Source: Candidatus Bathyarchaeota archaeon
Lineage (GTDB): Archaea; Thermoproteota; Bathyarchaeia; Bathyarchaeales; Bathycorpusculaceae
Assembly: GCA_018396675.1 (NCBI GenBank)
Contig: JAGTQX010000014.1
Span: 1 to 64,000 of the forward strand
Direction: 5' to 3'
Length of the DNA: 64,000 bases
Both the position numbers and the translations under genes were made by a program. Shown one piece after another: positions 6,135-47,808 of this stretch. The notes beneath the pieces are model-generated. The model searched no databases. It was not told where the DNA came from and saw nothing but the letters and a program-made list of their open reading frames with translations. The first letter of the stretch is position 1. The number at the start of each line of letters is the position of its first letter.

Positions 6135-6259
6135 CACCGTTTATGTTCAACATTAACCTGATATTGTAATAGAAAATGGAGCATTTGGTATACAAGTTTT
6201 TATTGTCAATAAGTATGTTTGTCTCTTTATGTGGATACATTTTGAGGATTCGCTACCTT

Positions 6260-6270: not shown

Positions 6271-6313
6271 ATAGGCATTTGAATAGGTTGAAGAAAGCGG
6301 GAGAAAAGTCACC

Positions 6314-6877: not shown

Positions 6878-6962
6878 CTGTTTTTGATGTTGAAGGTTTG
6901 TATGTTAGTGTTATTCCATAACGCTTTTATATTTGCATGAGTATTAAGTCTTACGATGCAGT

Positions 6963-7079: not shown

Positions 7080-7117
7080 AAGCCCCTCTAAAAGCATGAA
7101 GCTGGCGGAAGTTACAA

Positions 7118-7264
7118 ATGGAAGAAAACAGAAAACCCGTAGAAAGGCTCTATGAAGAATTCGCAAAATTTGAAAAGGCAATGGAAGAGCTGCGTTTTCT
7201 GAAACTTGTCGCCCAAGATCTTAAAAGTTTTAGGCGCATGATAAGGTTCAAAAAATATGACTAA
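7118..7264 (+). CDS. Small basic helical protein, 48 residues
   Basis: ATG 7118 to TAA 7262-7264. The product is almost entirely predicted helix, with alternating acidic and basic residues (ERLYEEFAKFEKAMEEL) and a basic C-terminus (SFRRMIRFKKYD). A GGCGGAAG stretch upstream (~7105-7112) could bind the ribosome. It lies between the coiled-coil gene and cysS on the same strand. Composition and codon use look coding. Function unknown. Confidence 0.5.
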   Translation: MEENRKPVERLYEEFAKFEKAMEELRFLKLVAQDLKSFRRMIRFKKYD

Positions 7265-7318
7265 CGCTTTTTAGGTAAAACCTTTAAGTCTTCTCGACAT
7301 TATCATTCTGGACAGAAA

Positions 7319-8743
7319 ATGAGCATGACGAAAAGTGAGATTATCCTCTTCAACACTTTGACACGTAGAAAGGAAAAATTTGTCCCGTTAAAGAATGGAG
7401 AAGCCAAAATTTACACTTGCGGTCCAACAGTTTACGATTTCGCCCACATTGGAAACTTTAGAACGTTTGTTTTTCAAGACTTGTTGAGAAGATGGCTTGA
7501 GTATTGCGGTTTTAAGGTAACCCAAGTTATGAATATAACAGATGTTGACGATAAAACGATAATTGGTGCTAGAAAACGGCAGATTTCCCTAAAGGAATAC
7601 ACAGATTATTATTTGAAGGCCTTCTTTGAAGACATTGAAACCCTGAACTTGGAGAAAGCCGAGTTTTATCCCAGAGCTACTGAACATATTCCAGAAATGG
7701 TTTCCCTGGTTAAGCGGCTTATGGAGAAAGGCTACGCTTACCGTGGCGAAGACGGCTCAATCTACTACGACATTTCAAAGTTCAAGAATTACGGCAAACT
7801 CTCAAAACTGAAAATTGAAGAATTAAAGCCAGGCGCGAGGGTGAAAGTTGACGAGTATGGAAAGGAAGAGGCCAGAGACTTTGCCCTTTGGAAGGCTTGG
7901 GATAAGGACGACGGCGAAGTTTTCTGGGACACTGAAATAGGCAAGGGTCGACCTGGCTGGCATATTGAATGCTCCACAATGGCTATGAAATATCTGGGAG
8001 AAACAATAGACATCCACAGCGGAGGCGTTGACCTAATCTTTCCCCATCACGAGAACGAGATTGCACAAAGCGAGGCTGCAACTGGCAAAGAATTTGCACG
8101 CTACTGGCTACATTCGGAACACTTGCTTGTTGAAGGCAAGCGCATGGCTAAACGTTACGGAAACTTTTACACTTTAAGAGACTTAACCGCAAAAGGTTAC
8201 GACCCGAAAGCTATACGCTATTTGCTTCTGTCAACACATTATAGGCAACAGTTAAACTTCACTTTTGAAGGACTTGAAGCGGCGAAAAACGCAGTTGACC
8301 GCCTAAAAACTTTTACACGTAGGCTTTTGGAAACTGACGGCAAAGGCTGCGGAGAAGAAATAAGACGTTTAATGACTGAAGTTCAAAGGCGTTTTGAAGA
8401 GGCTATGAATGATGACCTGAACATAAGCGTAGCCTTAGCTGCACTATTCGACTTCGTCAGGGACGTAAATAGGCTTATGGACGAGAACAGGCTGAGCAAA
8501 CAAGAAGCCGAAATGGTCTACAGTTTGATGATGAAGTTTGATAAAGTGTTAGGCGTAGTAGGCGAGTTTAAGACAGAGGAGAAATTGCCTACGGAGGCTG
8601 CAGAACTTATCAGAAAAAGAGAAGAAGCCAGGAAAGCGAAGGACTGGGTAACCGCCGACAAAATCAGAGCGCAACTTCGAGAAATGGGCGTAATTATCGA
8701 GGACACGCCTCAAGGAGTGAAATGGCGCATCGAAAAGCGATGA
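7319..8743 (+). CDS. cysS: Cysteinyl-tRNA synthetase
   Basis: 474 residues, class Ia. It charges tRNA-Cys. Zinc ligands expected of the family are present: Cys34 in YTCGPTVYD, the Cys in HIECSTMA, and HHENE. The HIGH motif is HIGN (43-46). KMSKS is degenerate, reading RMAKR (~275-279) before YGNFYTLRDL. The anticodon-binding C-terminal domain is present and ends with the family's typical ARKAKDWVTADKIR helix. The start ATG 7319 is followed in frame by another Met at codon 3. It stands alone, with an AT-rich promoter region upstream. Confidence 0.96.
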   Translation: MSMTKSEIILFNTLTRRKEKFVPLKNGEAKIYTCGPTVYDFAHIGNFRTFVFQDLLRRWLEYCGFKVTQVMNITDVDDKTIIGARKRQISLKEYTDYYLKAFFEDIETLNLEKAEFYPRATEHIPEMVSLVKRLMEKGYAYRGEDGSIYYDISKFKNYGKLSKLKIEELKPGARVKVDEYGKEEARDFALWKAWDKDDGEVFWDTEIGKGRPGWHIECSTMAMKYLGETIDIHSGGVDLIFPHHENEIAQSEAATGKEFARYWLHSEHLLVEGKRMAKRYGNFYTLRDLTAKGYDPKAIRYLLLSTHYRQQLNFTFEGLEAAKNAVDRLKTFTRRLLETDGKGCGEEIRRLMTEVQRRFEEAMNDDLNISVALAALFDFVRDVNRLMDENRLSKQEAEMVYSLMMKFDKVLGVVGEFKTEEKLPTEAAELIRKREEARKAKDWVTADKIRAQLREMGVIIEDTPQGVKWRIEKR

Positions 8744-8848
8744 AAAACAACTCTGTCTTATCGAAACGATTATAAGAGTTATCAACTGCTTGTGCATTTT
8801 GTCCACGCGAGGCTCGAGCTCAAAGAGGTGGCTACGGAGTAATGGGTA

Positions 8849-11848
8849 ATGAAGAACGTGAAGAATCAAAGCATGGAAAGTTCAAGAGTTGGCGAAGATT
8901 CGAGCCGAACAATCCCGACCGTCGAAGAATCCTTAATTTTGCCCATTGACGAGCTTCTTTCCCGTTTAGGCACTTCTCTGTCTGGGCTTTCTTCTGAGGA
9001 AGCAGAAAAGCGTTTAGCGATTTATGGTTATAACGAGTTAGCGAAAAGGAAGAAGAGAGTCGCCGTCGTTGAGTTTCTTCTGCATTTTCGAAGCCCTCTA
9101 GTGATTATCCTCTTGATTGCCGGTTTGATTTCCGGTTTTCTTGGAGAAATAGCAAACGTCGCCATAATTTTTTCTATAGTTTTCCTAAGCGTTATCTTGG
9201 ATTTCTATCAAGAATCCAAAGCTGAAAAAGCCGCGGAAATGCTAAGAGAAAGAGTAACAACAACGGCGACAGTGCTTAGAGACGGCGCCAAACGTGAAGT
9301 GAAGCTTTCAGAGATAGTTCCAGGTGACATAATATACTTGTCAGCAGGAGACATTGTCCCTGCAGACGCTAGAGTAATAAATGCAAAAGATTTGTTCATT
9401 AATCAGTCGGCACTTACAGGCGAATCTTTCCCTGTTGAGAAAACGTCGATACCTCCGAAATCTGGCGAGGCTTCTATAACTGAATGGAAAAATTACCTTT
9501 TCATGGGCACATCTGTTGTCAGCGGAACTGCAACAGCCGTGGTTGTAAGGACTGGAAGTCTCACCGAGTATGGTAAAATTGCGAAAAAGCTTGTTGTTAG
9601 AGAGCCTGAAACCGAGTTTGAAAGGGGAATTAGAAGCTTTGGCTTCATGATTATGGAGATAACTTTTCTACTCGTCATGTTTGTGTTCTCAATTAACGCA
9701 CTCTACAAGCGCGATGTGCTTGGGTCTCTTCTTTTCGTTGTGGCTTTAGCTGTCGGTTTAACGCCGGAACTTTTACCCATGATAATCTCGGTTAACCTTT
9801 CGAAAGGTGCACTTGCAATGTCAAAGAAGGGCGTGATTGTTAAGCGTTTGGCTTCGATACAGAATTTCGGCAGCATGGATGTCTTATGCACCGACAAGAC
9901 TGGAACGCTTACGGAGAACCGTATAAAACTCGTGCTACATGTTGATATTAATGGGGAAGATTCTGAAAAAGTACTCTTATACTCATATCTGAATAGTTAC
10001 TGTCAAACTGGGTTAAAAAGCCCACTTGACGAGGCGATATTGAAGTACAAGAATGTTGACGTGAAAGAGTATCAAAAAATAGACGAGATTCCATTCGACT
10101 TTTTGCGGAAACGCCTTTCCATAGTTGTCGAACACCAGAATCAAAGGTTTATGATCACCAAGGGCGCGCCAGAAGAAATAGCCAAAGTCTGCGCCTACTA
10201 CGAGGTGGGAGACATAATAGCCGACATAACCGATGAAGTACGCAGAAAAATTGAACAAAAATATCTTGAACTTAGCGCTGAAGGCTTCAGAGTTTTAGGC
10301 GTAGCCTACAAACGGTTAAGAGAGGACAAGCCCATCTACACGGTTAACGACGAAAACGAGATGGTTTACCTTGGTTTCATAGCTTTCCTAGACCCGCCCA
10401 AAGAAACAGCACGGGAATCGCTTCAACTTCTAAGCAAGGCCGGCGTTGAAGTTAAAATCTTAACAGGCGACAACGAACTTGTCACAAGAAAGGTCTGTGA
10501 ACACTTGGGCTTCGAAATCAAGGGCATCGTTTTAGGAAGCGAGATCGCACAGGTGCATGATGACGCTCTCGCAAGGGTTGTTGAGGAAGCAAACGTTTTC
10601 TGCAGAGTGACACCAGCCCAAAAAGATAGAATAATTAACGCCTTGAGGAACAACGGTCACGTTGTAGGTTTTCTCGGGGACGGCATAAACGATGCGCCTT
10701 CGTTGAAAAGTTCTGATGTGGGCATATCCGTGAATAACGCCGTTGACGTGGCAAAAGAATCCGCAGACATAATACTTTTACAGAACGATTTGACGGTGCT
10801 CCACGACGGAGTTTTGGAAGGTAGAAAAACTTTCGGCAACACCATGAAATACATCATGATGGGGACAAGCTCGAATTTCGGAAACATGTTCAGCGTAGCT
10901 GGCGCGTCACTGTTTCTAGATTTCTTGCCAATGCTTCCAACACAAATACTTCTAAACAACCTTCTGTACGATTTATCTCAATCTACGGTTCCGACGGACG
11001 ATGTTGACCAAGAATACATTGAAAAGCCAAAACGATGGGACATCTCCTTCATAAGGCGGTTCATGATATTCCTAGGTCCAATAAGTTCAATCTTTGACTT
11101 CTTGACATTCTTCATAATGCTCTTCGTGTTTAACGCTACTGAACCACTGTTTCAGACAGCATGGTTCCTTGAATCTCTTTCAACGCAAACATTTGTTATT
11201 TTTGTCATCAGAACCAAGCGTTCGCCGTTCTACAAGAGCAAGCCAAGCAAGCTTCTGCTCTTAAGTAGCGTAGCCATAGTGACGTTTGCGTCGATTCTGC
11301 CGTTCACGCCACTAGGAGAACTTTTCCAGTTTGTTGCGCCGCCATTCACATTTTACCTCGTGCTCGTTGGGCTTGTCGGCACTTATTTGACACTTGTTGA
11401 AGTTGTCAAGAGATGGTTCTTTAAAAGATATGGCTATCGTTTAGAGCAGATTTTGATACCGCCGAGAAAAATTGGGCTGTACATTGGCAAGACTGCGAGA
11501 CTCGTGCAAAACATGGTTGCCGTTATATGTCTACGTTTTGAAAACGAAATTTCCATAGACTCGCTTGTCGAAGATTTAAAGAATAGTTTAGATTATCCAT
11601 TCGATGCGGAACAAGTTTTCCACAACTTGAACCACTTGCGCCGTGCTGGACTAGTAAGTGTAAACTGGCATGAAAAAACTGTCAAACGTGAGAAAGCGAT
11701 TAAAGAATACGTTATGAAGCATGTGAGTGGCGATTCTTGGCCGAAAGTATCAAGTGATTGGCAAAAAGTAAGCGAGGTTCTCCGCGCCAAATATGGAAAA
11801 ATAAACGAGGAATATTCAAATATTCTTAATCGTCAACTTTACACTTAA
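8849..11848 (+). CDS. mgtA: Mg2+-type (MgtA-like) P-type ATPase with C-terminal extension
   Basis: 999 residues. An N-terminal cation-ATPase domain (~35-100) leads into the transmembrane core. The actuator loop has TGES (~190-193), the phosphorylation loop has DKTGTLTE (~349) and the hinge has GDGINDAP (~610). The C-terminal membrane region includes LPTQILLNNLLYDLSQ, typical of P3B magnesium importers. It should bring Mg2+ (or Ni2+/Co2+) across the cytoplasmic membrane using ATP. The usual family end is near FFKRYGYRLEQ (~866). Here ~130 further residues follow, containing a winged-helix-like segment (see findings). The start ATG 8849 could instead be Met9. It is flanked by cysS and lplA and appears monocistronic. 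Confidence 0.92.
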   Translation: MKNVKNQSMESSRVGEDSSRTIPTVEESLILPIDELLSRLGTSLSGLSSEEAEKRLAIYGYNELAKRKKRVAVVEFLLHFRSPLVIILLIAGLISGFLGEIANVAIIFSIVFLSVILDFYQESKAEKAAEMLRERVTTTATVLRDGAKREVKLSEIVPGDIIYLSAGDIVPADARVINAKDLFINQSALTGESFPVEKTSIPPKSGEASITEWKNYLFMGTSVVSGTATAVVVRTGSLTEYGKIAKKLVVREPETEFERGIRSFGFMIMEITFLLVMFVFSINALYKRDVLGSLLFVVALAVGLTPELLPMIISVNLSKGALAMSKKGVIVKRLASIQNFGSMDVLCTDKTGTLTENRIKLVLHVDINGEDSEKVLLYSYLNSYCQTGLKSPLDEAILKYKNVDVKEYQKIDEIPFDFLRKRLSIVVEHQNQRFMITKGAPEEIAKVCAYYEVGDIIADITDEVRRKIEQKYLELSAEGFRVLGVAYKRLREDKPIYTVNDENEMVYLGFIAFLDPPKETARESLQLLSKAGVEVKILTGDNELVTRKVCEHLGFEIKGIVLGSEIAQVHDDALARVVEEANVFCRVTPAQKDRIINALRNNGHVVGFLGDGINDAPSLKSSDVGISVNNAVDVAKESADIILLQNDLTVLHDGVLEGRKTFGNTMKYIMMGTSSNFGNMFSVAGASLFLDFLPMLPTQILLNNLLYDLSQSTVPTDDVDQEYIEKPKRWDISFIRRFMIFLGPISSIFDFLTFFIMLFVFNATEPLFQTAWFLESLSTQTFVIFVIRTKRSPFYKSKPSKLLLLSSVAIVTFASILPFTPLGELFQFVAPPFTFYLVLVGLVGTYLTLVEVVKRWFFKRYGYRLEQILIPPRKIGLYIGKTARLVQNMVAVICLRFENEISIDSLVEDLKNSLDYPFDAEQVFHNLNHLRRAGLVSVNWHEKTVKREKAIKEYVMKHVSGDSWPKVSSDWQKVSEVLRAKYGKINEEYSNILNRQLYT

Positions 11849-11864
11849 TCTTGGCGCGTTGGTT

Positions 11865-12650
11865 TTAGGTTTTTCCACGCATGTTCCAATTTTCTGTAGC
11901 GTATTTTTCTCTGCTAAGCTTTTCTGCAAGCGCTTTCTCGTAAGATGTTAACTCTCCATTCTCGAATTGCGTGTTTAAGGCTTTCTGGAAACCTTCAATT
12001 AAAACATTGTAAACGGTTTCAGGCGAGATTTCTTTTTCAAGCTCCGCGTTTATCGATGTTATCTTGTTTTTCGCTATATCTACGATTTCAATGCATGTTT
12101 TAGCCCATGGAACTTTTAGGAAACTGAACATTTTCTCAAGATTAACGTCTAAAAGAACTGTGCCATGCTGTAAGACCACGCCGGCCTTGTGGCATTGGGC
12201 ACTTCCCGAGATTTTTCTTCCGTTCACTGTTAGGTTTGGGCACGCTCTTGTGTCGCCTTCGTTAAAGTCTGCTTTTAAGCCTAGAATTTTTAAGGCTTCA
12301 ACTATTCCAGCGTAAATTTTCGCGTAAACTTCAGTTATGTCTTTGGCTTGCAAGTCTTCTCTGCTTGCGATTATGCTGTAGGTTATTTCGCCTTCAGCAT
12401 CGTGATAAACGGTGCCTCCGCCAGTTATCCGCCTAACCACGTCAACGCCGTATTTGTTGCAGTTTTCCAGGTTAACTTCGTTTTCTATTTTTTGAAATTT
12501 TCCTATTGACACTGCTGACGGATTCCAGCAATAAAACCTCACTGTATTTGGCGCCAAACCTCTTATTCTGGCGTCAAGTATAGCCTCGTCCATTGCCATG
12601 TTCATATAGGCGTTATGTGTTTCAAGTTTCAACAATCTCCAGCGAATCAT
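11865..12650 (-). CDS. lplA: Lipoate-protein ligase A, catalytic domain
   Basis: About 261 residues from the ATG whose first codon is at 12650, which has a GGTGACG ribosome-binding site. The frame stays open to a TTG at 12725, but that extension is Lys-rich and unlike the family. Family motifs are RRITGGGTVYHD (lipoate pocket) and NGRKISGSAQ, whose Lys contacts the lipoyl-AMP carboxylate, then HGTVLLDV. The C-terminal accessory domain of bacterial LplA is absent, as in archaeal enzymes that work with a separate LplB. No lplB lies nearby. It attaches lipoate or octanoate to carrier proteins such as GcvH. It faces away from rps12 and converges with the ATPase gene. Confidence 0.88.
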   Translation of the reverse strand: MIRWRLLKLETHNAYMNMAMDEAILDARIRGLAPNTVRFYCWNPSAVSIGKFQKIENEVNLENCNKYGVDVVRRITGGGTVYHDAEGEITYSIIASREDLQAKDITEVYAKIYAGIVEALKILGLKADFNEGDTRACPNLTVNGRKISGSAQCHKAGVVLQHGTVLLDVNLEKMFSFLKVPWAKTCIEIVDIAKNKITSINAELEKEISPETVYNVLIEGFQKALNTQFENGELTSYEKALAEKLSREKYATENWNMRGKT

Positions 12651-12815
12651 TATGGAAACGTCACCGTTAACCTTAAGCTTACCCTTTTTGGATTTTTGTG
12701 TTTCGCCCTTTAAAATGCCGCTCAAAGCCTTATTTTCTAATTTTCTTTGGTTTTTGCTTCGTTCAGTTTAAATATTAGAGTTGTGAATAGACGTAGCGAG
12801 AGGAAAACATAACCT

Positions 12816-13256
12816 ATGGGTTCAAAGTCTCCGAGAGGCGAATTCGCCGCTAGAAAACTCGCGGAAAAAAGGCAACGGTTCCGATGGAGTAGCATGTACT
12901 ATAAACGGCGAATGCTTGGATTAGACGTCAAAGCAGACCCGCTTGAAGGTGCGCCGATGGCGAGAGGCATAGTGCTTGAAAAAGTCGGCGTGGAAAGCAA
13001 ACAACCCAACAGCGCCATAAGAAAATGTGTCAGAACACAACTAATCAAGAACGGAAGAGTCATAACGGCTTTTCTCCCAGGAGACGGCGCCCTAAACGTT
13101 GTCGACGAACACGATGAGGTAGTAGTAGAGGGAATAGGCGGCTCCCGTGGAAGAAGCATGGGCGACATTCCGGGCGTACGTTGGAAAGTCATAATGGTTA
13201 ACGGCGTTTCACTCAAGGAACTCATACTTGGAAGAAAACAGAAACCGATGCGGTGA
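12816..13256 (+). CDS. rps12: 30S ribosomal protein S12
   Basis: 146 residues, archaeal/eukaryotic S23/uS12 type. It sits at the decoding centre. The conserved [12 protein letters not shown] loop and [10 protein letters not shown] region are both present, and the C-terminus is basic. The ATG at 12816 follows an AACCT context without a strong ribosome-binding site, and the promoter lies in the 90-base gap to lplA. The stop codon overlaps the GTG start of rps7 (GTGA), so the two are translationally coupled, as in the usual archaeal str operon. Confidence 0.98.
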
Positions 13257-13894
13257 GAAAAGTGAGTAAAGAACCGAAAGAAGCCGAGCAGAAAGAGCAA
13301 AAAGAGCAGCATAAAAAAGCAAAAGAAGAAAAAGACGTGAAGCTATTCGGCAAATGGAGCTTCAAAGACATTGAAGTCAAAGACCTAGGTTTGCAAAGAT
13401 ACATTTGTCTTAAACCCGTTACGGTTCCACACACCATGGGGCGACATGAACACAAACGTTTCGGCAAATCAAACGTGAATATTGTTGAAAGACTTGTGAA
13501 TAACCTCATGCGTCCAGGAAAAAACGCTGGAAAAAAGGCTAAAGCAATAAACATGGTTAAGCACGCTTTTGAAATTATTCACCTGCGCACTGGCAAAAAC
13601 CCTATAGAAGTGCTTGTCCGAGCGGTTGAAAATTCTGCGCCGTGTGAAGACACCACGAGAATAGCTTACGGTGGAGTCGTGTACCATTTGTCGGTTGACG
13701 TTGCGCCGCAAAGACGCGTCGACTTGGCTTTGAGGCACATATGCGAAGGTGCAAGACAAGCGGCAATTAATAATCCACGTTCAATTGAGGAATGCCTAGC
13801 AGAAGAGCTTATTTTAGCTGCAAACCATGATATGAAAAGCCACGCAGTAGCAAAACGTCACGAAATAGAAAGAGTTGCTCAAGCTTCAAGATAG
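13253..13894 (+). CDS. rps7: 30S ribosomal protein S7
   Basis: 213 residues, uS7 family; it nucleates assembly of the small-subunit head. The N-terminal ~35 residues are a highly charged Lys/Glu tail, followed by the conserved core ([47 protein letters not shown]). The GTG at 13253 overlaps the stop of rps12 by four bases; a second GTG four codons on (13262) is also possible. EF-1A, often next in this operon, is present about 1.8 kb downstream, separated by a GTPase gene on the other strand and a small peptidase-like gene. Confidence 0.97.
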
Positions 13895-13904
13895 CCTTAC
13901 TTTC

Positions 13905-15080
13905 CTATTTTGTGTGTATTTCGACAATATCGCCGTCTTCCAACTGGAAGGTTGCGCCCACTTTTTGGGGACTGAAAACGAGGCGTTTAGCCCAAACCTT
14001 CGCATAATAAAATCTTTCACCGAAGTCGCTGTGAATGCTTCTAGCCAAATCGTAGACCGTTGCCCCTTTTTTCAAGAGGAATGGCTTTGTTGAAAAACTT
14101 TTTTCACTCGGCTCTTTGGTGTAAACTCGGATTAAGTCCAAAGTTTTGAATAGGTTTTCTCCAATTTTCTCTAAGCCTTTTCCGGTCTTGCAGGAAACTG
14201 CAATTATTGGTAGTTGTCCGCCAACATAAGTTTCCAAAAATTTTAGGTTCGCCTCTGCACCGTTCACGTCAATTTTGTTTGCGACGATTATGGTTGGCTT
14301 GTAGATTGTACTTTCAAAAACTGCATCCTCAACTTCGTCTAAAGTGGCTTCGCCGTAAATTTTGACAACTGCATCCGTAACCCTATAACTTTTGAGAAGT
14401 TCCTCCAAATCTTTGAAACTGCAGTCTAAAAGTTTTCCAAAAACAATTATGCGTAAGCCAGCACCCATAAACTTTCGTTCAATCTCCACACGCGCCTTTG
14501 GCTTGCTGACAAGCACCCGTGTCTTTTCCAGTTCTCCAAGAATTAACGACAGTTGCTCAACTGGATTATTTGCCAAGTCCACCATTAAAATTAAGCCGTC
14601 AGCGTTTCTAGCTAAAGCCAAGGTTTGAAGTCCCCACCCTCTCCCGTCTGCGGCACCCTCCATTAAAGCAGGAGCCTCAACTACTTGGAACTGGATGTCC
14701 TCGTAAGAAAGCATGCCCGGAACCGGTTCTCTGGTCGTGTAAGGTGCTGGCGAAACTTCAACTTTTGCGTTTGTTGCAATTGCAAGAAGGCTGCTTTTAC
14801 CCACATTCGTCAATCCCAAAATGACAATTTGCGCCGCGCCTTCTTTTTCTATGAAAATTTTCGGTCCGCTTTGGCCAGCCTTTCTGCGTTTCCCCTCAGC
14901 TATTTCCTTTCGCAGAGCAGCCATCTGTTTCTTAACTTGGGCACATAGCTTTGCTGTTCCTTTATGTTTTGGGACAAGACCTAAAAATTCTTGCATAAGC
15001 TGAAGCTTTTGTCTAGGGTTTCTTGCAGCTGAAACTTCCGCCCATTTACGTTTGGCTTCAGCGGGCAAATTTGTGGGCAT
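13905..15080 (-). CDS. DRG/Obg-family GTPase with TGS domain
   Basis: 391 residues from ATG 15080 (an in-frame TTG at 15098 is possible, but the family begins MPTNLPAEA). A helical N-terminal region precedes the G domain: G1 GLTNVGKSS (~89-97), a G3 region reading VEAPAL in place of the usual DTPG-like motif, and G4 ANKID (~280s). The C-terminal TGS domain (~320-391) ends DGDIVEIHTK. DRG proteins are translation-associated GTPases that bind ribosomes or RNA. The position beside rps7 and EF-1A fits a translation role. It converges on rps7 with a 10-base gap. Confidence 0.93.
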   Translation of the reverse strand: MPTNLPAEAKRKWAEVSAARNPRQKLQLMQEFLGLVPKHKGTAKLCAQVKKQMAALRKEIAEGKRRKAGQSGPKIFIEKEGAAQIVILGLTNVGKSSLLAIATNAKVEVSPAPYTTREPVPGMLSYEDIQFQVVEAPALMEGAADGRGWGLQTLALARNADGLILMVDLANNPVEQLSLILGELEKTRVLVSKPKARVEIERKFMGAGLRIIVFGKLLDCSFKDLEELLKSYRVTDAVVKIYGEATLDEVEDAVFESTIYKPTIIVANKIDVNGAEANLKFLETYVGGQLPIIAVSCKTGKGLEKIGENLFKTLDLIRVYTKEPSEKSFSTKPFLLKKGATVYDLARSIHSDFGERFYYAKVWAKRLVFSPQKVGATFQLEDGDIVEIHTK

Positions 15081-38642: not shown

Positions 38643-39377
38643 CTACTCTTTTTTCTGTGTAAGTGAGGGAAAAGCCCTTCTACATGCTTTGATTATCGGC
38701 GGTCCAAGTGTTACCAGAAACGGGATTTCAGTTGCAAAAGTCCATACCAACCATAAGAAGCTTGCGTAAAAAGGCGCGTTGCGTTCCCAGCCAGTTGAAA
38801 GTGGAAGCGGTAAAACTTGGCTGTAAGCCCATAAGCCGAAGCCTATCCACGCGCTTCCAACGGCTAATCCAATGACAGAGCCAAACTGGTAACTGCGCCA
38901 TTCAGGGAAAACATGCCCAACAATGACGGCGATTACGTAACAGCCGATGAATACGCCCAGAAAAAGAAGCCCAACATCAAGGTTCAATATTGCCTCATTA
39001 AGCAGATAAAATATCATCAAAGCGATTACGCCGCAAACTCCCAGTCCAGCGGCGACGTGTTTCCATTCAATGTTTTTCTTGCTTATGTACCCTATTATGA
39101 AGAAGCCTAGAAAGTTTGACGGTACGCCTACCGTGAGGCTTAACCAGGGTATACCATGTCCAGGCTGGATCATGTCGGCGAAGAATATGCCTATTGCGGC
39201 GCCTATTCCGCCGACCCATGGACCGAAGAGTGCCGCGAAAACTGCTGGAACAATTACTGCGGGCCAGAATCTGACGACTCCTACGACTGGGCTAACTATG
39301 CCCAAGTTTGTTAAGTAACCTACAATAGTGTATAACGCGGCGCATACGGCGGTCATTGCTATGTCAAGTGTTTTCAA
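38643..39377 (-). CDS. ECF-transporter S-component-like protein of the CoA operon
   Basis: 244 residues from TTG 39377, with GGTGA eight bases upstream. Six or seven hydrophobic helices are visible, starting MTAVCAALYTIVGYL and then VRFWPAVIVPAVFAALFGPWVGGIG, the S-component layout. Being first in an operon with pantoate kinase and PPAT, it may take up a CoA precursor such as pantothenate or pantoate; this is inference from context. It is divergent from the pilin gene and shares a 190-base regulatory region with it. Confidence 0.8.
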   Translation of the reverse strand: MKTLDIAMTAVCAALYTIVGYLTNLGIVSPVVGVVRFWPAVIVPAVFAALFGPWVGGIGAAIGIFFADMIQPGHGIPWLSLTVGVPSNFLGFFIIGYISKKNIEWKHVAAGLGVCGVIALMIFYLLNEAILNLDVGLLFLGVFIGCYVIAVIVGHVFPEWRSYQFGSVIGLAVGSAWIGFGLWAYSQVLPLPLSTGWERNAPFYASFLWLVWTFATEIPFLVTLGPPIIKACRRAFPSLTQKKE

Positions 39378-39570: not shown

Positions 39571-40134
39571 ATGAAACTGTTAAAGAGTAAGAAAGGCTTA
39601 AGCACAGTAGTGACAACGCTGATTATCCTAGTCGTTTCAGTGTTGCTAGCGTCAGTTGTAACCTTCTACGCCATAAACGTGACGACAACCCGTGTACAAG
39701 AAGAATCGCTTTTCTTGACAAAGCCACACATATGGTACAGCTCCACCAATGAAACGCAGACTGGCGAGGCTGCCATAATGATAATAAACACTGGCGGACG
39801 AGACGTTGTAATCGACAAAATTACAGTTAGAGGACAAGAATGCGAATGGACTAACGTTTTCTACAACATAACAAAAGGAAGCATTACTGGAGACCTTGAA
39901 TTCCAAGATACCTTAACTGATGGTGGAACAATATCAATAGGTGGATCTAGTTATGAATTCATCCAAGGCACATCAGGAACTGATTTGACTTTGAGGTCTG
40001 GTTATACAATGATCATTTACATCGACGATCCTGACAGCATTTCACTGAATGACATAGGCTTAACCGTCGGTATAACAGTGTTCACTTCGAACGCACAATA
40101 CTATAAAGAGGCAAACGTAGAAGCCACCGCATAA
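39571..40134 (+). CDS. Major-pilin-like protein with class III signal peptide
   Basis: 187 residues from ATG 39571 (an earlier in-frame ATG at 39508 precedes the TATA box). The N-terminus KLLKSKKGLSTVVTTLII is a prepilin signal: basic stretch, cleavage expected after KKG, then a hydrophobic helix of ~22 residues. The exterior domain is beta-rich with Thr/Gly-rich repeats and possible N-glycosylation sites (NVT, NIT, NET). It is likely the pilus subunit, polymerised by the ATPase encoded downstream. It is monocistronic and ends at a pyrimidine-rich terminator. Confidence 0.85.
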   Translation: MKLLKSKKGLSTVVTTLIILVVSVLLASVVTFYAINVTTTRVQEESLFLTKPHIWYSSTNETQTGEAAIMIINTGGRDVVIDKITVRGQECEWTNVFYNITKGSITGDLEFQDTLTDGGTISIGGSSYEFIQGTSGTDLTLRSGYTMIIYIDDPDSISLNDIGLTVGITVFTSNAQYYKEANVEATA

Positions 40135-40142
40135 ACTGGTGA

Positions 40143-40177
40143 CTCCTTTCTCCCCTCTCTCTTTTTCCCTTGTTTTT
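40143..40177 (+). terminator. Pyrimidine-rich terminator after pilin gene
   Basis: The sequence after the pilin stop is nearly all T and C, with runs TTTTT and GTTTTT and no stem-loop. This is the usual form of archaeal termination signals. It would separate the abundant pilin transcript from the operon downstream. Confidence 0.55.
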
Positions 40178-40264
40178 ATCAAGCTTTTGAAACTTTTAAA
40201 CATGCTCTCGTGCAAATTATAACCGACATTAAAGTTTTCAAATCTTGATTTCAGATAAGCCCTA

Positions 40265-40285
40265 TGTGTAGTTTTGTTCTACACA
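40265..40285. promoter_or_regulatory. Inverted repeat upstream of the pilus operon, copy 2
   Basis: TGTGTAG and CTACACA are perfect complements around TTTTGTT. The copy before the pilin gene (39499-39519) differs at only a few bases, and both are followed by a conserved ATCTTAT. A shared regulator for both units is the simple reading. Confidence 0.72.
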
Positions 40286-40348
40286 CACCATCTTATCTTG
40301 TGATTGACTCAAAAGGGTTCAATTGGCAAACGGCAAGAGAGGAGACTG

Positions 40349-41182
40349 TTGAGAAGAACACCAAAAAGCACGTTAAAAAAATTCATGCGTTCGCGAAAGG
40401 CTTTAGCTATTCCAGTAACCTACTTGATACTCTTCGCCTCGCTTTTAGCTATAATCTCCATCACATACGGTTTTGCAGTGGCTAGGATAAGCGCAAAAGG
40501 TGCAGCGTTAAAACTTTCAGTTGCTAAACAAAACATGCAAACGTTAGACGACGCCGTGCGTTCTGTGGCGTGGAGCTTCGGCGCCTCAAAAACTGCATAC
40601 ATGGAGGACTGCGGAGGCGTTTTCCAAACACAGTCAAGCAAAGATTTAAGCCTAACACTAACAGACGAGCAGACTTTCGCTTACACAGTATTGAACAGTT
40701 CCATCGGAAAAGTGTGCTACGTTCTTGAGGCTTCGACGGAAAGCCAAGAAGGCCTATACGTTAAAGGTGATAGCCGCGCCATCATAAACCAAAGCGCATA
40801 CCCAATGACGCAACTTTATTTTGCAAGAGGCGAGAACGCGCAGCAACTAACCCTATGTTATCGGCCAATGGCAACGGTATTGGCAGCTGGCACAACTGAC
40901 GGTAAACCTCTAAACTTTATTCGCGTATATGTAATAAGCTTGGCTTCTTCTGAAGCTTTGACAGCTAGCGGAAGTTTTTACGTTAAAGCTTCAGCCTTGA
41001 ACGTTACAGTTGAATCGCAGCTTTACAATTTGAACAGCACGGTCTCCTCTCTGGCTTTGAAGGCTGTCTCCGACGGGGTTCAAACCACAGTTTGGCTTCC
41101 AATAGAAAGCAATGCAGAAGGCGCGTTTGTGAACCTCGAAATTCTAACCTGCCACATCAAAATCCAGAGGGTGAACGCTTAA
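40349..41182 (+). CDS. Pilin-like envelope protein, first gene of the pilus operon
   Basis: 277 residues from TTG 40349, chosen for a GAGAGGAG site just upstream; TTG 40304 and ATG 40385 are alternatives. A basic N-terminus leads to RSRKALAIPVTYLILFASLL, which resembles a prepilin peptidase site (RKA then a hydrophobic helix). The exterior part (~230 residues) is beta-rich with N-x-S/T sites and two Cys near residue 90. It is probably a minor pilin. It ends one base before the next gene. Confidence 0.75.
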   Translation: MRRTPKSTLKKFMRSRKALAIPVTYLILFASLLAIISITYGFAVARISAKGAALKLSVAKQNMQTLDDAVRSVAWSFGASKTAYMEDCGGVFQTQSSKDLSLTLTDEQTFAYTVLNSSIGKVCYVLEASTESQEGLYVKGDSRAIINQSAYPMTQLYFARGENAQQLTLCYRPMATVLAAGTTDGKPLNFIRVYVISLASSEALTASGSFYVKASALNVTVESQLYNLNSTVSSLALKAVSDGVQTTVWLPIESNAEGAFVNLEILTCHIKIQRVNA

Positions 41183-41183
41183 A

Positions 41184-41645
41184 ATGCCAGCTATAACGCC
41201 GAGTTACCTTTACACTTTGTTCGCTGTGATAGCCGTAAGCAGCATCCTAACAGTGTCGTTCATGAACTATGCCAACGCCGTGCGCACTTCGCTGGAAACA
41301 CGAAAAATGAAAAACCTTCTCGACCAAATCGCAGCTAAAGCCACGGAACTATTAACGCTTACGATGACAACAAACGCGAAGGCTTCAACTTTCATACAAG
41401 CGCCTAACGCAATGGGTGAAAAACAATATTGGATAAGGCTAGAAAACGACTCAACACGAGCTTGGCTTGAAGGCGGCTTTGGAAACACACCAACAGAAAA
41501 CACAGAACTACGCGCCTACATTCCAAACTGCGCCTTAGTCTCAGGTTACTACATCAGCGGCTATGGTGCAATCTGCCTAACATGCTCCGTGGATAATGGC
41601 GCCATAAAAATACAGATTTTAAGTGCAAGCCAGAACGGGGGTTAA
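41184..41645 (+). CDS. Pilus-operon protein with N-terminal membrane helix
   Basis: 153 residues. A single hydrophobic helix (~7-28, TLFAVIAVSSILTVSF) starts almost at the N-terminus with no basic leader, followed by a polar helix and a beta-rich exterior domain with four cysteines in its second half. It begins MPAIT, like the later operon member MPAIS at 44781. A pseudopilin or pilus-base component is likely. It ends 5 bases before the ATPase gene. Confidence 0.75.
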   Translation: MPAITPSYLYTLFAVIAVSSILTVSFMNYANAVRTSLETRKMKNLLDQIAAKATELLTLTMTTNAKASTFIQAPNAMGEKQYWIRLENDSTRAWLEGGFGNTPTENTELRAYIPNCALVSGYYISGYGAICLTCSVDNGAIKIQILSASQNGG

Positions 41646-41650
41646 CAAAC

Positions 41651-43252
41651 ATGAAGTTCAATTTGAAGCCCAAAAAAGGCGAAGCTGCACAAGCAGAATT
41701 CAAAAATTTAATGATGGAAGAAGCCGAGTTAGCAAGCGTTTTGGAAATTCAGAAATGGAGTGTTCCGGAAGGTTACTTGGAGATTGAATATTACCCCCTC
41801 CGTCCACCGTTCTCCTACGCGGCGGTAATTCAAAACGAGGAAACCCTCGAATACCTTTATGTTTTAGATGAGTTGCCGTTGTCAAAAGAGGAAAGAGACG
41901 GCTATTTCAGGCTTAGAAACATTTTGGAGTTCGAGTTGCAAGCGCCAGAAGGCGAAGAGACGCTGGCAGAATCTTTCAGGCGGCAGATGCCCGTAATACT
42001 ATCCAAGCATCGTAAGGTTCTTGAGGGAATTTCACCCATCGGAGTGCGAAAAATCCTTTACTATCTTGAAAGAGACATTGTTGGATACGGCAAAATAGAC
42101 CCATTAATGTATGACGAGTACGTTGAGGACATTGGATGCAGCGGCGTAAACAAGCCAGTTTACCTTTGGCACAGGAAATATGAAAATATTAAAACCAACG
42201 TGATTTTCAGGGATGAACAAGAACTTGAAGACTTCGTAATGCGCATGGTTCATAAGTCTGGAAAACACGTGAGCATCGCCTTTCCAATAGTGGATGTTAC
42301 TCTGCCAGAAAAACATCGTTTGGCAGTCTCTTTTGGAAGAGAGACTACCCCATACGGAACAGCCTTCACCATCAGAAAGTTCCGCAAAGACCCCTTCACA
42401 ATAATCGACCTCATAGAAAATGAAACAATAAACGAGAGCATAGCCGCTTACCTTTGGCTTCTGATGGAAAACAAGATGTCAGTCATGATTATAGGTGCGA
42501 CAGGTGCTGGAAAAACCACTGCCCTAAACGCGGTTGCATGCCTCATAAAACCAAGCTACAAGATTATATCAGTCGAAGAAGTCGCCGAAATAAACCTTCC
42601 ACACGAAAACTGGACATCCACAATTGCACGGTCCGGTTTTGGAGCAGAAAGCGAAGGCGAAATTACACTATACGACCTCATTAAATCCGCAGTACGCCAC
42701 CGTCCAGATCTTGTAATCGTAGGCGAAGTCCGCGGTGAAGAAGCCTACGTGCTTTTCCAAGCGTTAGCCACTGGACATGGAGGCTTATGCACGTTGCACG
42801 CTGAAGATGTGGACACGGCTGTTAAGAGGCTTACGCAACCGCCGATGAGTATCCCTACATCTATAATTTCACTCATGAACTGTGTAATCAACGTTAAGCA
42901 CGTGCGAACGCCTGTTTTCCTTGAATCTGGAAGAAAGCTTTCAAGCAGGAAATTCGTGAACGTTACAGAAATAAAAGAGTATGACAGTTATCAGGAAGTC
43001 TTCAGTTGGAACCCCTCAACAGACACGTTCAACGAAAACCTTTCTGAAAGTTATCTGCTGAAAAAAATGGCTTCAAGCCTAGACATCCCGGTTGAGAGAC
43101 TCCTAGAAGAGTTGGAATACCGCAAAAAAGTTTTAGCACACATGGTTGAACAAGGCATACGCGACTACCGAAGCGTAAACAAAGTTCTAAGCAAATACTA
43201 CAACAATCCAGAGCTCTTCCAGAAAGAATTTCTAGAGAATAGCGGATGGTGA
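41651..43252 (+). CDS. Type IV pilus/secretion ATPase (FlaI/TadA/GspE family)
   Basis: 533 residues. The N-terminal domain (~1-220) is followed by the RecA-like domain with Walker A GATGAGKT (282-289), an Asp/His region, Walker B DLVIVGEVRGEE (~350-360) and the His box ATGHGGLCTLHAED. The order and motifs match archaeal FlaI and Tad-type hexameric ATPases that power subunit assembly at the inner face of the membrane. It is followed after 4 bases by the membrane platform gene. No archaellum-specific genes (FlaH, FlaF/G) are present, so a pilus or secretion machine is more likely than an archaellum. Confidence 0.95.
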   Translation: MKFNLKPKKGEAAQAEFKNLMMEEAELASVLEIQKWSVPEGYLEIEYYPLRPPFSYAAVIQNEETLEYLYVLDELPLSKEERDGYFRLRNILEFELQAPEGEETLAESFRRQMPVILSKHRKVLEGISPIGVRKILYYLERDIVGYGKIDPLMYDEYVEDIGCSGVNKPVYLWHRKYENIKTNVIFRDEQELEDFVMRMVHKSGKHVSIAFPIVDVTLPEKHRLAVSFGRETTPYGTAFTIRKFRKDPFTIIDLIENETINESIAAYLWLLMENKMSVMIIGATGAGKTTALNAVACLIKPSYKIISVEEVAEINLPHENWTSTIARSGFGAESEGEITLYDLIKSAVRHRPDLVIVGEVRGEEAYVLFQALATGHGGLCTLHAEDVDTAVKRLTQPPMSIPTSIISLMNCVINVKHVRTPVFLESGRKLSSRKFVNVTEIKEYDSYQEVFSWNPSTDTFNENLSESYLLKKMASSLDIPVERLLEELEYRKKVLAHMVEQGIRDYRSVNKVLSKYYNNPELFQKEFLENSGW

Positions 43253-43256
43253 AAAA

Positions 43257-44759
43257 TTGCAGAGAACCATCAAAGGACCTAAAATTTTTGGTAAAATGTT
43301 AAACCGCTTAGTTGAAGAGGATACAAGCGAAATAAACCGTGAACTTCCATTCGCCGCGTTACTTTTCACAATACTGGCTGCAAGTGAGGTAACCCTGTAC
43401 GAAAGCTGGAAAAAACTATGCGCAATAGATCATCTACCCAAATTCCAGCAAGAGGCAAAAGAAATCGTTAGGCAAGTAGAAGTTTTGGGCTACGACCCTT
43501 TGACTGTCATGCAAAGACGCGCCGAAAAGACAAAATCAAAAAGTTACCGTGAATTTTTGTTCGGCTACGTTTCAGCTGTGAGAAGCGGCGGGAACATTGT
43601 GAACTATCTTAAAAGCAAATTGCGCTCAATCTTCGACATTCAAAGTGCTGCTGCAATCCGCTCCATTGAAAGGCTTGGAACACTAGTGGAAGCATATGCA
43701 GTCATGCTAATCGTGACACTTTGCTCTTACATACTCTTCATAATCTTTTCAACAACATCGGTATTCGAGCCAATGAAGGCCACCGGGACTCCCGGCATTT
43801 CCACACCGCTTGTGTGCCTTCTGGTATTCGGCGTAACTCCACTAATATCCGTAATCTTCATGATTATAGCCCATTTTGAAAGAAAAAGCAACATTGTCGG
43901 GCTTAAGAAACCATACAAAATCGCAGCGATAACAGTAATTGCCTCATGCGGCTTATTGGCAGCAGTATTCCTAGCGCCGCCGCTTCAATATTTGACAAGT
44001 CCACAAGTTCTGCCGCTTGTTGTAACCGCATGCCTATTGACAATTTCGATTCCATCATCAGCAGTCTACATTGAAATAGCCAGAATAAACAATGCCGCTG
44101 AAAACGCCATGCCAAACTTCCTCAGAGACATTACAGAAGCGAGAAAAACCGGACTGTCGCCTGAAAAAAGCATAATCCACGCTGCGAAACGTTCAGGCTA
44201 CGGAAAGTTTTCTGAAGTTCTGTCGCTTATCAGAAGTCAAATGGAGTGGGGAGTACCGTTAAGGAAAATATTTTCCAGCGTTAAAAGAAAGATTCAAACA
44301 TGGCCTGTTCTAGTTAACTTCCTTATACTTATGGAAACAATAAAAATGGGCGGCGGCTCAAGCGTCGCTTTGGAAATATTAACCGAGTACAGCGAAAAAC
44401 AAAAGGATGTCGAAACAAACAAGAAGTCACTGTTAAGGCCCTACGTTATTCTCGCCTTCATATGGAGCGTCCTAATAGCCTTAACAACAACCATGGTCGC
44501 TTTAACTGTCTACGCCTTAACGCAGCTTTCATTTCCAGGCTCTACACCAATGTCTTTTCTCGTTATACAAGAGCAGATGAACCTGTTCTCTTTAGGTATA
44601 CTGCTACAATGTTGGCTTTCCGGCTTTTTCGTTGGCAAAGTTAACGAGGGCAATTTTGCAGCTGGCTTCAAATATTCAGCTATGCTTGTGCTCACTGCTC
44701 ATATTTCGCTTATGCTTTCACAAACCATGCTCGGTGGAATGTTTGGACTCATTCATTAA
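43257..44759 (+). CDS. Type II secretion F/TadC/FlaJ-like membrane platform protein
   Basis: 500 residues from TTG 43257 with GGTGA upstream. There are two T2SSF-like cytoplasmic domains (GNIVNYLKSKL ~110-125 and GKFSEVLSLIRSQM ~315-330) and several hydrophobic segments between and after them. It anchors the ATPase and pilin assembly in the membrane. The duplicated domain layout is the FlaJ/archaeal-pilus form. Confidence 0.93.
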   Translation: MQRTIKGPKIFGKMLNRLVEEDTSEINRELPFAALLFTILAASEVTLYESWKKLCAIDHLPKFQQEAKEIVRQVEVLGYDPLTVMQRRAEKTKSKSYREFLFGYVSAVRSGGNIVNYLKSKLRSIFDIQSAAAIRSIERLGTLVEAYAVMLIVTLCSYILFIIFSTTSVFEPMKATGTPGISTPLVCLLVFGVTPLISVIFMIIAHFERKSNIVGLKKPYKIAAITVIASCGLLAAVFLAPPLQYLTSPQVLPLVVTACLLTISIPSSAVYIEIARINNAAENAMPNFLRDITEARKTGLSPEKSIIHAAKRSGYGKFSEVLSLIRSQMEWGVPLRKIFSSVKRKIQTWPVLVNFLILMETIKMGGGSSVALEILTEYSEKQKDVETNKKSLLRPYVILAFIWSVLIALTTTMVALTVYALTQLSFPGSTPMSFLVIQEQMNLFSLGILLQCWLSGFFVGKVNEGNFAAGFKYSAMLVLTAHISLMLSQTMLGGMFGLIH

Positions 44760-44780
44760 AAGCGTAAAAAGGTGAAACTT

Positions 44781-45845
44781 ATGCCCGCGATATCTCTTGA
44801 CACGTTCTTCGCATGTTCCCTGATGGTTTTGCTTATGCTTTCAGCTATGGCTGCAACTACAAAGCTCTTATACCCTTCAATAAATGGTTCGTCAAGTGAA
44901 GTTGCCGAAAGATACAGAAAAATGGCTCAATATATTCTGCTAAACGCTGGAAACCCGCCGAACTGGGGACAAGATGGACAAAACTTTCCGGAAGAATTTG
45001 GGTTAGCCAAAGCTGGAGCTGAAAACGTTTACACGCTTGATATTGATAAAGTTTCTAGACTAAACGGCTTAAACGTTTACGCTTTAAGTTACGCTCAAAT
45101 GTTCACAGGCTTGAAAATGCCAGACGTCTCCTTTTCTATTGAAATAAAACCAGTCTTTGAAACCCGTATAAGCTTAACTGCAACCTTTCGCGGCACGGAT
45201 GAAACAATGTACCAGTTTGAAGTTTCAACCGAGAAGGACGGTGTCAAAGTTCCGACAAACCTAAAACTGTACATAATTGCTGAAGATTTTTTGGAATCAT
45301 CAAATATCCTTATTTCTGATGGCGCCGTCAACCTGAACGTGACAATCCCAAACAGCATTAACGGGCCAGCCTTACTTGTCGTTTTTGCAAGGTATGTTTA
45401 CAACGATAAAATGTTTTCTTTCGCATCTTACGCCTTTACGCATAACGCGCAAAAACCAGAACCTTCTGGCACATTTCTGCAACTCTCACCATTAAATTAT
45501 ACGCTAACAGTCCAATTCAAAACTCAAGAAACGGTTTTGTCGAAATTTTACGCGTTGGCTTTCAATTATTCCTCAGAAATTACGCCGAGAGAAAGCATCA
45601 ACCAATCTGCAGTTTTTAGCTTTCCAAAGTTTTTAGACTCTAGTCCCACGGTGCTTGTTATTACTGGAAAAAGCGCTGGACGGTTTTTTGTGGAGTGCAC
45701 CGCATATCCGCAGGTACCGTTGCAAGTTGGCGCCAGTTTTTCAGAAGCGTCAAGCCTTTCAGATGTTTTTGCTTACAGCCACCTTGTATCAATAAACCGT
45801 GCAGTTTACGTTTGCACACTCTGGTTTGGGGGGCCAAAACTGTGA
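44781..45845 (+). CDS. Large pilin-like envelope protein of the pilus operon
   Basis: 354 residues from ATG 44781 with GGTGA six bases upstream (a GTG at 44772 is less likely). One N-terminal hydrophobic helix (~7-28) precedes ~320 exterior residues, beta-rich with many N-x-S/T sites. It begins MPAIS, echoing MPAIT in the 153-residue protein. No enzymatic motif is seen. It may be a tip or adhesin-like subunit. The next gene's GTG overlaps its stop codon. Confidence 0.72.
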   Translation: MPAISLDTFFACSLMVLLMLSAMAATTKLLYPSINGSSSEVAERYRKMAQYILLNAGNPPNWGQDGQNFPEEFGLAKAGAENVYTLDIDKVSRLNGLNVYALSYAQMFTGLKMPDVSFSIEIKPVFETRISLTATFRGTDETMYQFEVSTEKDGVKVPTNLKLYIIAEDFLESSNILISDGAVNLNVTIPNSINGPALLVVFARYVYNDKMFSFASYAFTHNAQKPEPSGTFLQLSPLNYTLTVQFKTQETVLSKFYALAFNYSSEITPRESINQSAVFSFPKFLDSSPTVLVITGKSAGRFFVECTAYPQVPLQVGASFSEASSLSDVFAYSHLVSINRAVYVCTLWFGGPKL

Positions 45846-46267
45846 AACACCGGAATATGGGACAGATTAGGATAATTGAAGCTTTTCTGGCCGTGTTTAT
45901 TGTTTTCTCTTCTTTGGCCATTTCTGCAAATCTCACGGTAACCAACCGTTCCAGCGACGAGCTTGACGATTTAGCTTCAATTGGACTGCAAGCACTGTTA
46001 TGGCTGGATTCAAATGGAAACTTGGGCGAATACATAAATAACCGAAACTGGACGGCTTTACGATGTTCCTTAAACGTCTTGTTGCCGACAAGCGTCTCCT
46101 TCAATGTTACAGTGTATGATGTGGAAATGCGGCAAATCAACAATGAAATAATCTCTAACGGAAACCTGAACAGTCAAGACGTCGCTTTCGTCAAGTATAT
46201 TTGCGTAAGTCAAAACTCGGTTTTCAAAGTTTATGTGGTTCATATGCATTTGGCGGTGGCTAAATGA
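45842..46267 (+). CDS. Small pilin-like protein of the pilus operon
   Basis: 141 residues from GTG 45842, which overlaps the previous stop (GTGA); ATG 45857 is an alternative. A hydrophobic helix (IIEAFLAVFIVFSSLAISAN) is followed by a short exterior domain with N-x-T sites. The Glu in RIIEAFLAVF near the helix start recalls the Glu5 of type IV pilins. It overlaps the next gene by four bases. Confidence 0.72.
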   Translation: MKHRNMGQIRIIEAFLAVFIVFSSLAISANLTVTNRSSDELDDLASIGLQALLWLDSNGNLGEYINNRNWTALRCSLNVLLPTSVSFNVTVYDVEMRQINNEIISNGNLNSQDVAFVKYICVSQNSVFKVYVVHMHLAVAK

Positions 46268-47022
46268 GAAAAATTGCTAAAATCTGTAGGGCTAGAAGCT
46301 CTGGACAACTTTTCATAGTGGCGGCCATAGCCATCGCCCTAATAATTTCTTCGATAACAGTATATGTTTACGAATTCAACAGAGAAAATCAAGCTCCAGA
46401 AGACCATTTAGTAAGTGAATATTTTCTAGTTGTGAAACAAGGTTCAAGAAACGCCGTGATAAGCGCGCTTGCAAACATTTCAGACGGCGGCGAAAAAACG
46501 GTGTTAGCTGAAAACGTTGGGGCTCTTTCAGAAGCCTACTTAAGTGTGATGCAAAATGGCATTTATCAGTTATCTTACACGCTTTTTAACAGCTCGGGCT
46601 ACGCGGATGGAGTAAAACTTTTGTGGAGCGACAATGGGTTAGGCGTTTCAAGCGCCTATGTAGAGTTCACTTTGGAGACAATTGGCTTAACATTCAACGC
46701 CACAATGACATATGCTGTTAACGTGACGACGACCGCCAAAATAGCAGGTTACTACACGATTAACGGCACGGCTAAAGACGTAAACATAACATGCCAAATT
46801 TTCAATGAGGAAGAACCAGCCCTAGTCAAAAACATAACAACGTATTATGAGGATTCTGGCGTTTGGCTGCCTGTTACGCCTTCAATAATAAATTACGGCA
46901 ACGGCACATACATCCTATCATTTACGGTTTTTACGTCGTCTGACCCCGTGCAAGTATCAGTGCATATCAGCGACTTACGTGGCATACTAGTTCAAGCAAA
47001 CGCAACATGCAGCAGCTTGTAA
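46264..47022 (+). CDS. Pilin-like envelope protein, last gene of the pilus operon
   Basis: 252 residues. A basic N-terminus (RKIAKICRARSSG) leads to a hydrophobic helix (QLFIVAAIAIALIISSIT) with a cleavage-like SG/Q border. The exterior domain is beta-rich with about nine N-x-S/T sites, hinting at a heavily glycosylated surface protein. It closes the operon; RbkR follows after ~95 bases. Confidence 0.74.
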   Translation: MRKIAKICRARSSGQLFIVAAIAIALIISSITVYVYEFNRENQAPEDHLVSEYFLVVKQGSRNAVISALANISDGGEKTVLAENVGALSEAYLSVMQNGIYQLSYTLFNSSGYADGVKLLWSDNGLGVSSAYVEFTLETIGLTFNATMTYAVNVTTTAKIAGYYTINGTAKDVNITCQIFNEEEPALVKNITTYYEDSGVWLPVTPSIINYGNGTYILSFTVFTSSDPVQVSVHISDLRGILVQANATCSSL

Positions 47023-47118: not shown

Positions 47119-47808
47119 ATGATTGAAACGCAAAGTTGGCGCCACCTTTGCACTCTTTTGAAACTGGCTGAAATGGGTGCACATCGTAGAACAGCCAAAA
47201 TCTCCACGGAGTATTTAGCCAGAAAACTTGGCATTTCACAACAGTCAGCTTCACGTCACCTAATAGAACTTGACAGAAAAGGTTGGATTAAACGAACAAC
47301 AACCCATGAAGGCTGCTTGATAAGAATTACCGAAGCTGGCGTTGCAGAGTTAAAGAAGCTTTATTCGAACATGCGTTTCCTGATGGAGGCAGCTTATCCG
47401 CCGTCAGTGACCATTGAAGGCATAGTCTTCTCTGGATTAGGCGAAGGCGCTTACTATGTTACACGTGACCCTTACAGGCGGCAGTTTATTGAAAAACTCG
47501 GTTTCGACCCATACCCCGGGACGCTTAACCTAAAACTTGTAACTGAGTACGACGTGAAAACGCGTTCAGAGCTTGAAGGTTACCCAGCCATAGAAATTGA
47601 AGGCTTTACAAATGAAAGCCGCACTTTTGGACCTGTTAAATGTTACCCTGCAATAATCGAAAACAGAGTGAAAGGCGCACTTATTTCAGCAATAAGAAGC
47701 CACTATGACGCTTCGGTTGTGGAGATAATCGCGCCCGTGTGCTTGCGGAAACATTTAACATTAAAAGATGGACATAAAGTGAAAGTTGAAATTTTAACAA
47801 CGCCGTAA
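47119..47808 (+). CDS. ribK: RbkR: winged-helix regulator fused to CTP-dependent riboflavin kinase
   Basis: 229 residues. The winged helix (~8-85) contains STEYLARKLGISQQSASRHL. The kinase domain (~95-229) has VFSGLGEGAYYV and GFDPYPGTLNLKL, the CTP/Mg2+ contacts of archaeal RibK. It makes FMN and represses or activates riboflavin genes. RibL, which makes FAD next, is encoded ~600 bases downstream on the other strand. The usual RbkR operator could not be picked out in the 95 bases upstream. Confidence 0.93.
   Translation: MIETQSWRHLCTLLKLAEMGAHRRTAKISTEYLARKLGISQQSASRHLIELDRKGWIKRTTTHEGCLIRITEAGVAELKKLYSNMRFLMEAAYPPSVTIEGIVFSGLGEGAYYVTRDPYRRQFIEKLGFDPYPGTLNLKLVTEYDVKTRSELEGYPAIEIEGFTNESRTFGPVKCYPAIIENRVKGALISAIRSHYDASVVEIIAPVCLRKHLTLKDGHKVKVEILTTP

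Follow-up and report, generated by a model that had tools for sequence, protein, structure and literature searches.

The + strand of the window (the whole stretch of 64,000 nucleotides that was analysed) contains eight open genes between positions 39571 and 47022: a stand-alone pilin gene, A, followed by B, C, an ATPase gene (D), a platform gene (E), F, G, and H. From B to H, the genes are separated by 1, 5, 4, 21, -4, and -4 bases, and A lies 250 bases upstream of B. The initial annotation, which had described a seven-gene pilus-type operon and a separate pilin rather than an archaellum, is correct in this respect: the locus is of the type IV pilus (T4P) kind. The cluster can be regarded as real because both its gene set and its order are kept in orthologous loci, which is not expected by chance. 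One gene flanks it on each side in the window. That at 47119-47808 encodes a winged helix-turn-helix protein with a CTP-dependent riboflavin kinase domain (PF01982, 1.1e-42), and that at 38643-39377 the S component of an ECF transporter of the riboflavin type (PF07155, 1e-8); a similar kinase gene also adjoins the cluster in several relatives.

The motor is encoded by D and E. D (41651..43252, 533 aa) is a PilB-type assembly ATPase that matches T2SSE at 1.1e-36 and, weakly, PilB3_C at 0.0064; the Walker A motif of a FlaI/TadA-type ATPase, which had been placed at residues 282-289, was located there as GATGAGKT. E (43257..44759, 500 aa) is a PilC/TadC-type inner-membrane platform in which T2SSF (3.2e-20) is matched in two stretches of one gene, as expected from the two-domain TadC/FlaJ-like platform described earlier. 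Among solved structures, the nearest relative of the ATPase is the Archaeoglobus fulgidus secretion ATPase 2OAP (376 bits), followed by the Sulfolobus archaellum ATPase FlaI/ArlI (4II7), a member of the same superfamily (222 bits), and CpaF (145 bits). In the ATPase tree, the window-type sequences and those of a paralogous locus on contig C10 of the same genome group with sequences from Thermoproteota and Nitrososphaeria, apart from the haloarchaeal group, from 2OAP, which forms a separate long branch, and from FlaI, which serves as an outgroup together with the genome's own archaellum-type ATPase. It should be noted that this tree is a quick one, built without bootstraps and with long branches for the haloarchaeal sequences and 2OAP; thus, no conclusions are drawn from it beyond the distance to ArlI/FlaI and the placement among Thermoproteota and Nitrososphaeria sequences.

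A single N-terminal hydrophobic helix is present in A, B, C, F, G, and H, in agreement with the at least five single-helix surface proteins noted earlier, and class III leaders (charged residues followed by G or A ahead of the hydrophobic helix) are found on A, B, G, and H. A (39571..40134) is a predicted major pilin (PilA-like) with the canonical leader MKLLKSKKG/LSTVVTTLIILVV, although its match to Pilin_N in Pfam (E=6.3e-4, 21 bits) stays below the curated cut-off of 25.2. The putative minor pilins are B (40385..41182, leader RSRKA/LAIPVTYL), for which 40385 is the most likely start and 40304 a possible alternative; G (45842..46267, leader MKHRNMG/QIRIIEAF); and H (46264..47022, leader RARSSG/QLFIVAA). 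The start of G is most likely the GTG at 45842, which overlaps F by 4 bases, rather than the ATG 15 bases further on, since the charged leader is present at that position in most orthologues. C (41184..41645) and F (44781..45845) appear minor-pilin-like; they start MPAITPSY and MPAISLDTFF, respectively, without a class III leader. The many N-x-S/T sites attributed to these proteins hold only for H, which has nine where shuffled sequences average 3.1 (a count reached in 0 of 1000 shuffles), whereas the remaining proteins exhibit no excess over composition.

A single-sequence Pfam search of B, F, and H gave nothing useful, whereas scans of the whole homologue sets of the five subunits did yield matches, all of them below the curated cut-offs: DUF7289 for B (best E=1.3e-5, three of 30 members), DUF7266 for C (best 6e-5, 14 of 24 homologues), DUF7287 for F (E=0.0093, two of 28), DUF7288 for G (best 9.8e-5, 14 of 31 homologues), and DUF7261 for H (E=0.014, three of 28). 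HMM searches of the subunits thus give one-to-one matches to DUF families, at sub-threshold scores. When the DUF7288 model was searched against relative genomes, nine of 81 were matched, none above the cut-off, and in five relatives the matches lie approx. 2.6 kb past the orthologous ATPase, i.e., at the position expected for G. Structure prediction, which had also been proposed as a check, gave models of C and F that appear pilin-like in outline. The predicted model of C (pLDDT 84) has a single helix (6-63) and a sheet of seven strands, which would correspond to the usual pilin outline, and that of F (pLDDT 88) has helices at 6-30 and 36-54 followed by beta domains. Nonetheless, fold searches revealed no significant match of C or F to a solved pilin: for C, nothing in the PDB fell under E=0.08, the top match being a chain of a type II secretion system (T2SS) pseudopilus at a non-significant 0.084, and F matched generic Ig/FnIII domains only.

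A comparison of gene neighbourhoods across Bathyarchaeia showed that the cluster is conserved. Orthologues of the window ATPase, 60-91% identical, occur in 38 of 80 relative genomes, and the orthologous loci read share the arrangement A-B-C-ATPase-platform-F-G-H, with one to three tandem copies of A upstream; the eight-gene order is therefore recurrent across many Bathyarchaeia genomes. For every one of B, C, F, G, and H, the window-type profile matches all 21 window-type loci. Beyond this class, 70 of 200 genomes of the phylum have a G-type gene according to the Bathyarchaeia G profile. Of 14 sampled phylum loci, eight contain the whole B-C-F-G-H series in this order and not interrupted by the motor; a T4P ATPase lies in the same stretch for seven of these eight, with a PilA-type match in five of the seven. 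Among the rest of the 14, three loci retain part of the series with its order unchanged, and in another one the order differs. Since the block is unbroken in those eight loci and here the ATPase and platform genes lie between C and F, the arrangement in the window can be considered a variant of the phylum-wide block.

Several layouts among the relatives deserve mention in their own right. In L068, three tandem A-type pilins are located at -3721 to -1544 relative to the ATPase, two of which are of equal length and identical across the N-terminal part compared. Two loci, L075 and L078, have a C10-type ATPase and platform followed by different pilin-like genes in place of B-C-F-G-H, and in L067, which is from the same genome as L075, a PilA-like gene and a peptidase-like gene lie downstream of the window-type cluster; these layouts suggest that pilin sets are exchanged. 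A predicted regulator (..LGLSKNEIRIYLHLARSG..ASEISEALSL) is encoded approx. 2-4 kb upstream of the ATPase in L060, L063, L066, and L067 and downstream in L068; it is not found in the window and is a candidate pilus regulator. Three genomes of one family (G134, G212, and G190) have three to four G-type (DUF7288-like) genes each.

The genome under study encodes four ATPases of the same superfamily as D, including that of the window. The paralogous locus on contig C10 (L008, G000:C10:213000-232500) has the same A, B, C, F, G, and H set and an ATPase 52% identical to the window one. Its order is Ig/PKD surface protein-ATPase-platform-B-C-F-G-H-PilA-like-prepilin peptidase, i.e., B-C-F-G-H follow the platform unbroken, whereas in the window the motor pair lies between C and F. 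It differs further in its much longer G and H, in the 982-aa Big_1/PKD/beta-helix surface protein upstream, and in the prepilin peptidase downstream (C10:230681-231424; PF06847 1.9e-22, PF01478 1.8e-11). When profiles of the two types were aligned with hhalign, A (whose counterpart is the PilA-like gene) matched at 6e-5, B at 4e-21, F at 3e-11, G at 1e-18, and H at 1e-10; C matched its counterpart weakly (0.2), and the best off-diagonal pair was no better than 0.015. The locus on C1 (L009, G000:C1:49000-67000, at approx. 5688-14692) is archaellum-like, with ArlF/G-like single-helix proteins, a KaiC-like (ArlH-like) ATPase, ArlI- and ArlJ-like proteins, and then four archaellin-like genes, a reading made by eye except for the ATPase. 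The fourth T4P-type ATPase, on C4 (L007, G000:C4:42000-61000, 8429-14046), is accompanied by a platform split into two genes and by two pilin-like genes, one of 613 aa. The absence of FlaH, FlaF/G, and a prepilin peptidase, which the initial annotation had pointed out, is thus a property of the cluster but not of the genome, because a peptidase and an archaellum-like locus are encoded elsewhere.

Outside the phylum, the five DUF families occur together in haloarchaea. On a plasmid of Halobaculum halophilum (L082), DUF7289, DUF7266, DUF7287, DUF7288, and DUF7261 are encoded behind an ATPase and a platform, and the layout in Haloferax mediterranei (L164) is the same. A PilB4 locus plan with its own pilin set has been published, with the roles of most pilins left open (Makarova et al. 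2016, PMC4858521, Fig. 4B), and the Halobaculum locus, judging from its pilins and ATPase extensions, is probably of this type. For PilB4-PilC4, expression only has been reported, and its impact is said to remain to be established (PMC12542753). The haloarchaeal locus shares with the window the ATPase, the platform, and a nearby PilA-type pilin, and its five DUF families may correspond to the window subunits, whose homologue sets each match their own DUF below the cut-offs. However, its gene order is ATPase-platform-F-G-H-C-B rather than B-C-ATPase-platform-F-G-H, its ATPase comprises 989 aa with extra terminal parts compared with 533 aa, and the two ATPases lie on different branches of the tree, so that the PilB4-type ATPase feature is not found in the window. 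Profile comparison (hhalign) with the two haloarchaeal loci is weak: diagonal E-values are 0.003-0.12 for B, C, G, and H, B scores better off the diagonal, and F has no match. Likewise, HMMs built from only these two haloarchaeal loci found no F, G, H, or C in Bathyarchaeia. A Tad/Flp pilus was also considered and rejected: both T2SSF domains of the platform lie in a single gene and not in separate TadB and TadC, the CpaF match of 145 bits is well below that of 2OAP (376), and there is no TadZ-like gene in the cluster. With the ATPase, the TadC/PilC platform, the PilA-type pilin, and a prepilin peptidase in the genome, the gene-level features of an archaeal type IV pilus of the PilB/PilC type are present.

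The N-termini of C and F form a separate question. A class III leader on C or F is absent from every Bathyarchaeia orthologue read. The MPAIT and MPAIS starts that had been remarked upon reflect an N-terminal pattern shared by the two proteins and also seen in basal orthologues (MPSNSIDYL in C and MPVTSLDTL in F); the remark is explained by the fact that Bathyarchaeia homologues of C and F begin with MP or MA (rarely with another short start), with the helix following almost directly. D7 is invariant in the alignment of F homologues, and an acidic residue is found at position 7 of basal or paralogous C proteins. More distant F relatives in the phylum start MKAYEYIFA, MHALEYLVA, and MHVTIDNMF. 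Haloarchaeal F carries a class III leader (NRGQTNIDF) and haloarchaeal C has a charged start, in contrast to their counterparts in the window. ArlF and ArlG of the archaellum provide a precedent for pilin-like proteins that lack class III leaders and are left unprocessed. From their sequences, C and F may likewise be leaderless pilins.

It is very probable that the locus encodes an archaeal type IV pilus assembly, with A as its filament protein, B, C, F, G, and H as putative minor pilins, and a surface, probably adhesive, pilus as its product. Within this context, D as the ATPase and E as the polytopic platform would draw pilins out of the membrane and assemble them into a filament, and A would polymerise as the major pilin. 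The prepilin peptidase encoded on C10 would trim A, B, G, and H in trans, whereas C and F, whose genes would directly specify a mature-like N-terminus, might reach the membrane with no class III leader. Minor (pseudo)pilins of bacterial T4P and T2SS prime assembly and sit at the tip or base. By analogy with the minor-pilin priming complexes of bacterial T4P (e.g., PMC7541494), B, C, F, G, and H would together prime assembly and remain at the tip or base of the pilus. The most likely product appears to be a pilus with an adhesive or another surface role. While the pilus reading is well supported, the following counts against it: the leader by which prepilins are defined is missing from C and F, the Pfam matches of the five subunits are below cut-off, the haloarchaeal profile matches are weak, C matches its paralogue at 0.2, and neither modelled fold significantly matches a solved pilin.

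In principle, the same motor could power a short piston for protein export or DNA import without building a long surface pilus, as in a T2SS-like or DNA-uptake pseudopilus. The five minor subunits would suit such a device, the nearest structural matches of C, albeit not significant, are T2SS pseudopilins, and the best solved relative of the ATPase was deposited as a type II secretion protein. However, a separate PilA-type pilin, sometimes in tandem, accompanies the cluster, no conserved effector or DNA-processing gene lies beside it in the loci read, and what appear to be the same subunit families are found in haloarchaeal T4P loci; a pseudopilus is unlikely. A T2SS also has an outer-membrane secretin and secreted substrates; the envelope here is an archaeal one, and no substrate gene was identified. 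A second archaellum, or a degenerate one, has a negligible probability: archaella are indeed related to T4P, and ArlF and ArlG are similarly devoid of class III leaders, but the tree and the gene content already contradict this reading. The cluster has no archaellum accessory genes, including any ArlH-like gene, the window ATPase lies outside the ArlI clade and groups neither with FlaI nor with the ATPase of the archaellum-like locus, and that locus, as read by eye, is a separate one elsewhere in the genome.

The initial annotation had favoured this cluster as the best candidate for an undescribed machine. In such a machine, the five beta-rich proteins would not be pilins but form a surface complex on a borrowed T4P motor. 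The missing class III leaders of C and F and the Ig-like matches among relatives of F and H are consistent with such a complex, and no published work on what B, C, F, G, and H do, or naming the five DUFs, was found in the papers searched. Nonetheless, class III leaders are present on B, G, and H, the model of C has a single long helix and a beta sheet, the five subunits show sub-threshold matches to a set of families co-encoded in a haloarchaeal T4P locus, and B-C-F-G-H is widespread in the phylum and linked there to T4P motors. The candidacy is not supported, and a machine of this kind is very improbable. The match to a described system was largely found, at the family level through the five DUFs, but not as an experimental description of the subunits.

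Taking the type IV pilus as the preferred reading, a broader proposal can be put forward, if only tentatively and with more doubt than confidence: B, C, F, G, and H might constitute a core archaeal minor-pilin complex for priming, at the tip or base, which resembles the T2SS minor pseudopilins and is common to Thermoproteota and Halobacteria. C and F would be its leaderless members, with a mature-like N-terminus and an acidic residue near position 5-7 encoded directly, thereby bypassing the prepilin peptidase. The phylum-wide ordered block of five subunits and its two leaderless members are points of modest interest. Bathyarchaeia are shown to carry complete T4P loci, in a lineage in which pili have gone largely unremarked. 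Moreover, five haloarchaeal DUF families of unknown function appear to be linked to a single ordered set of subunits that recurs across the phylum, and their role thereby becomes open to direct testing.
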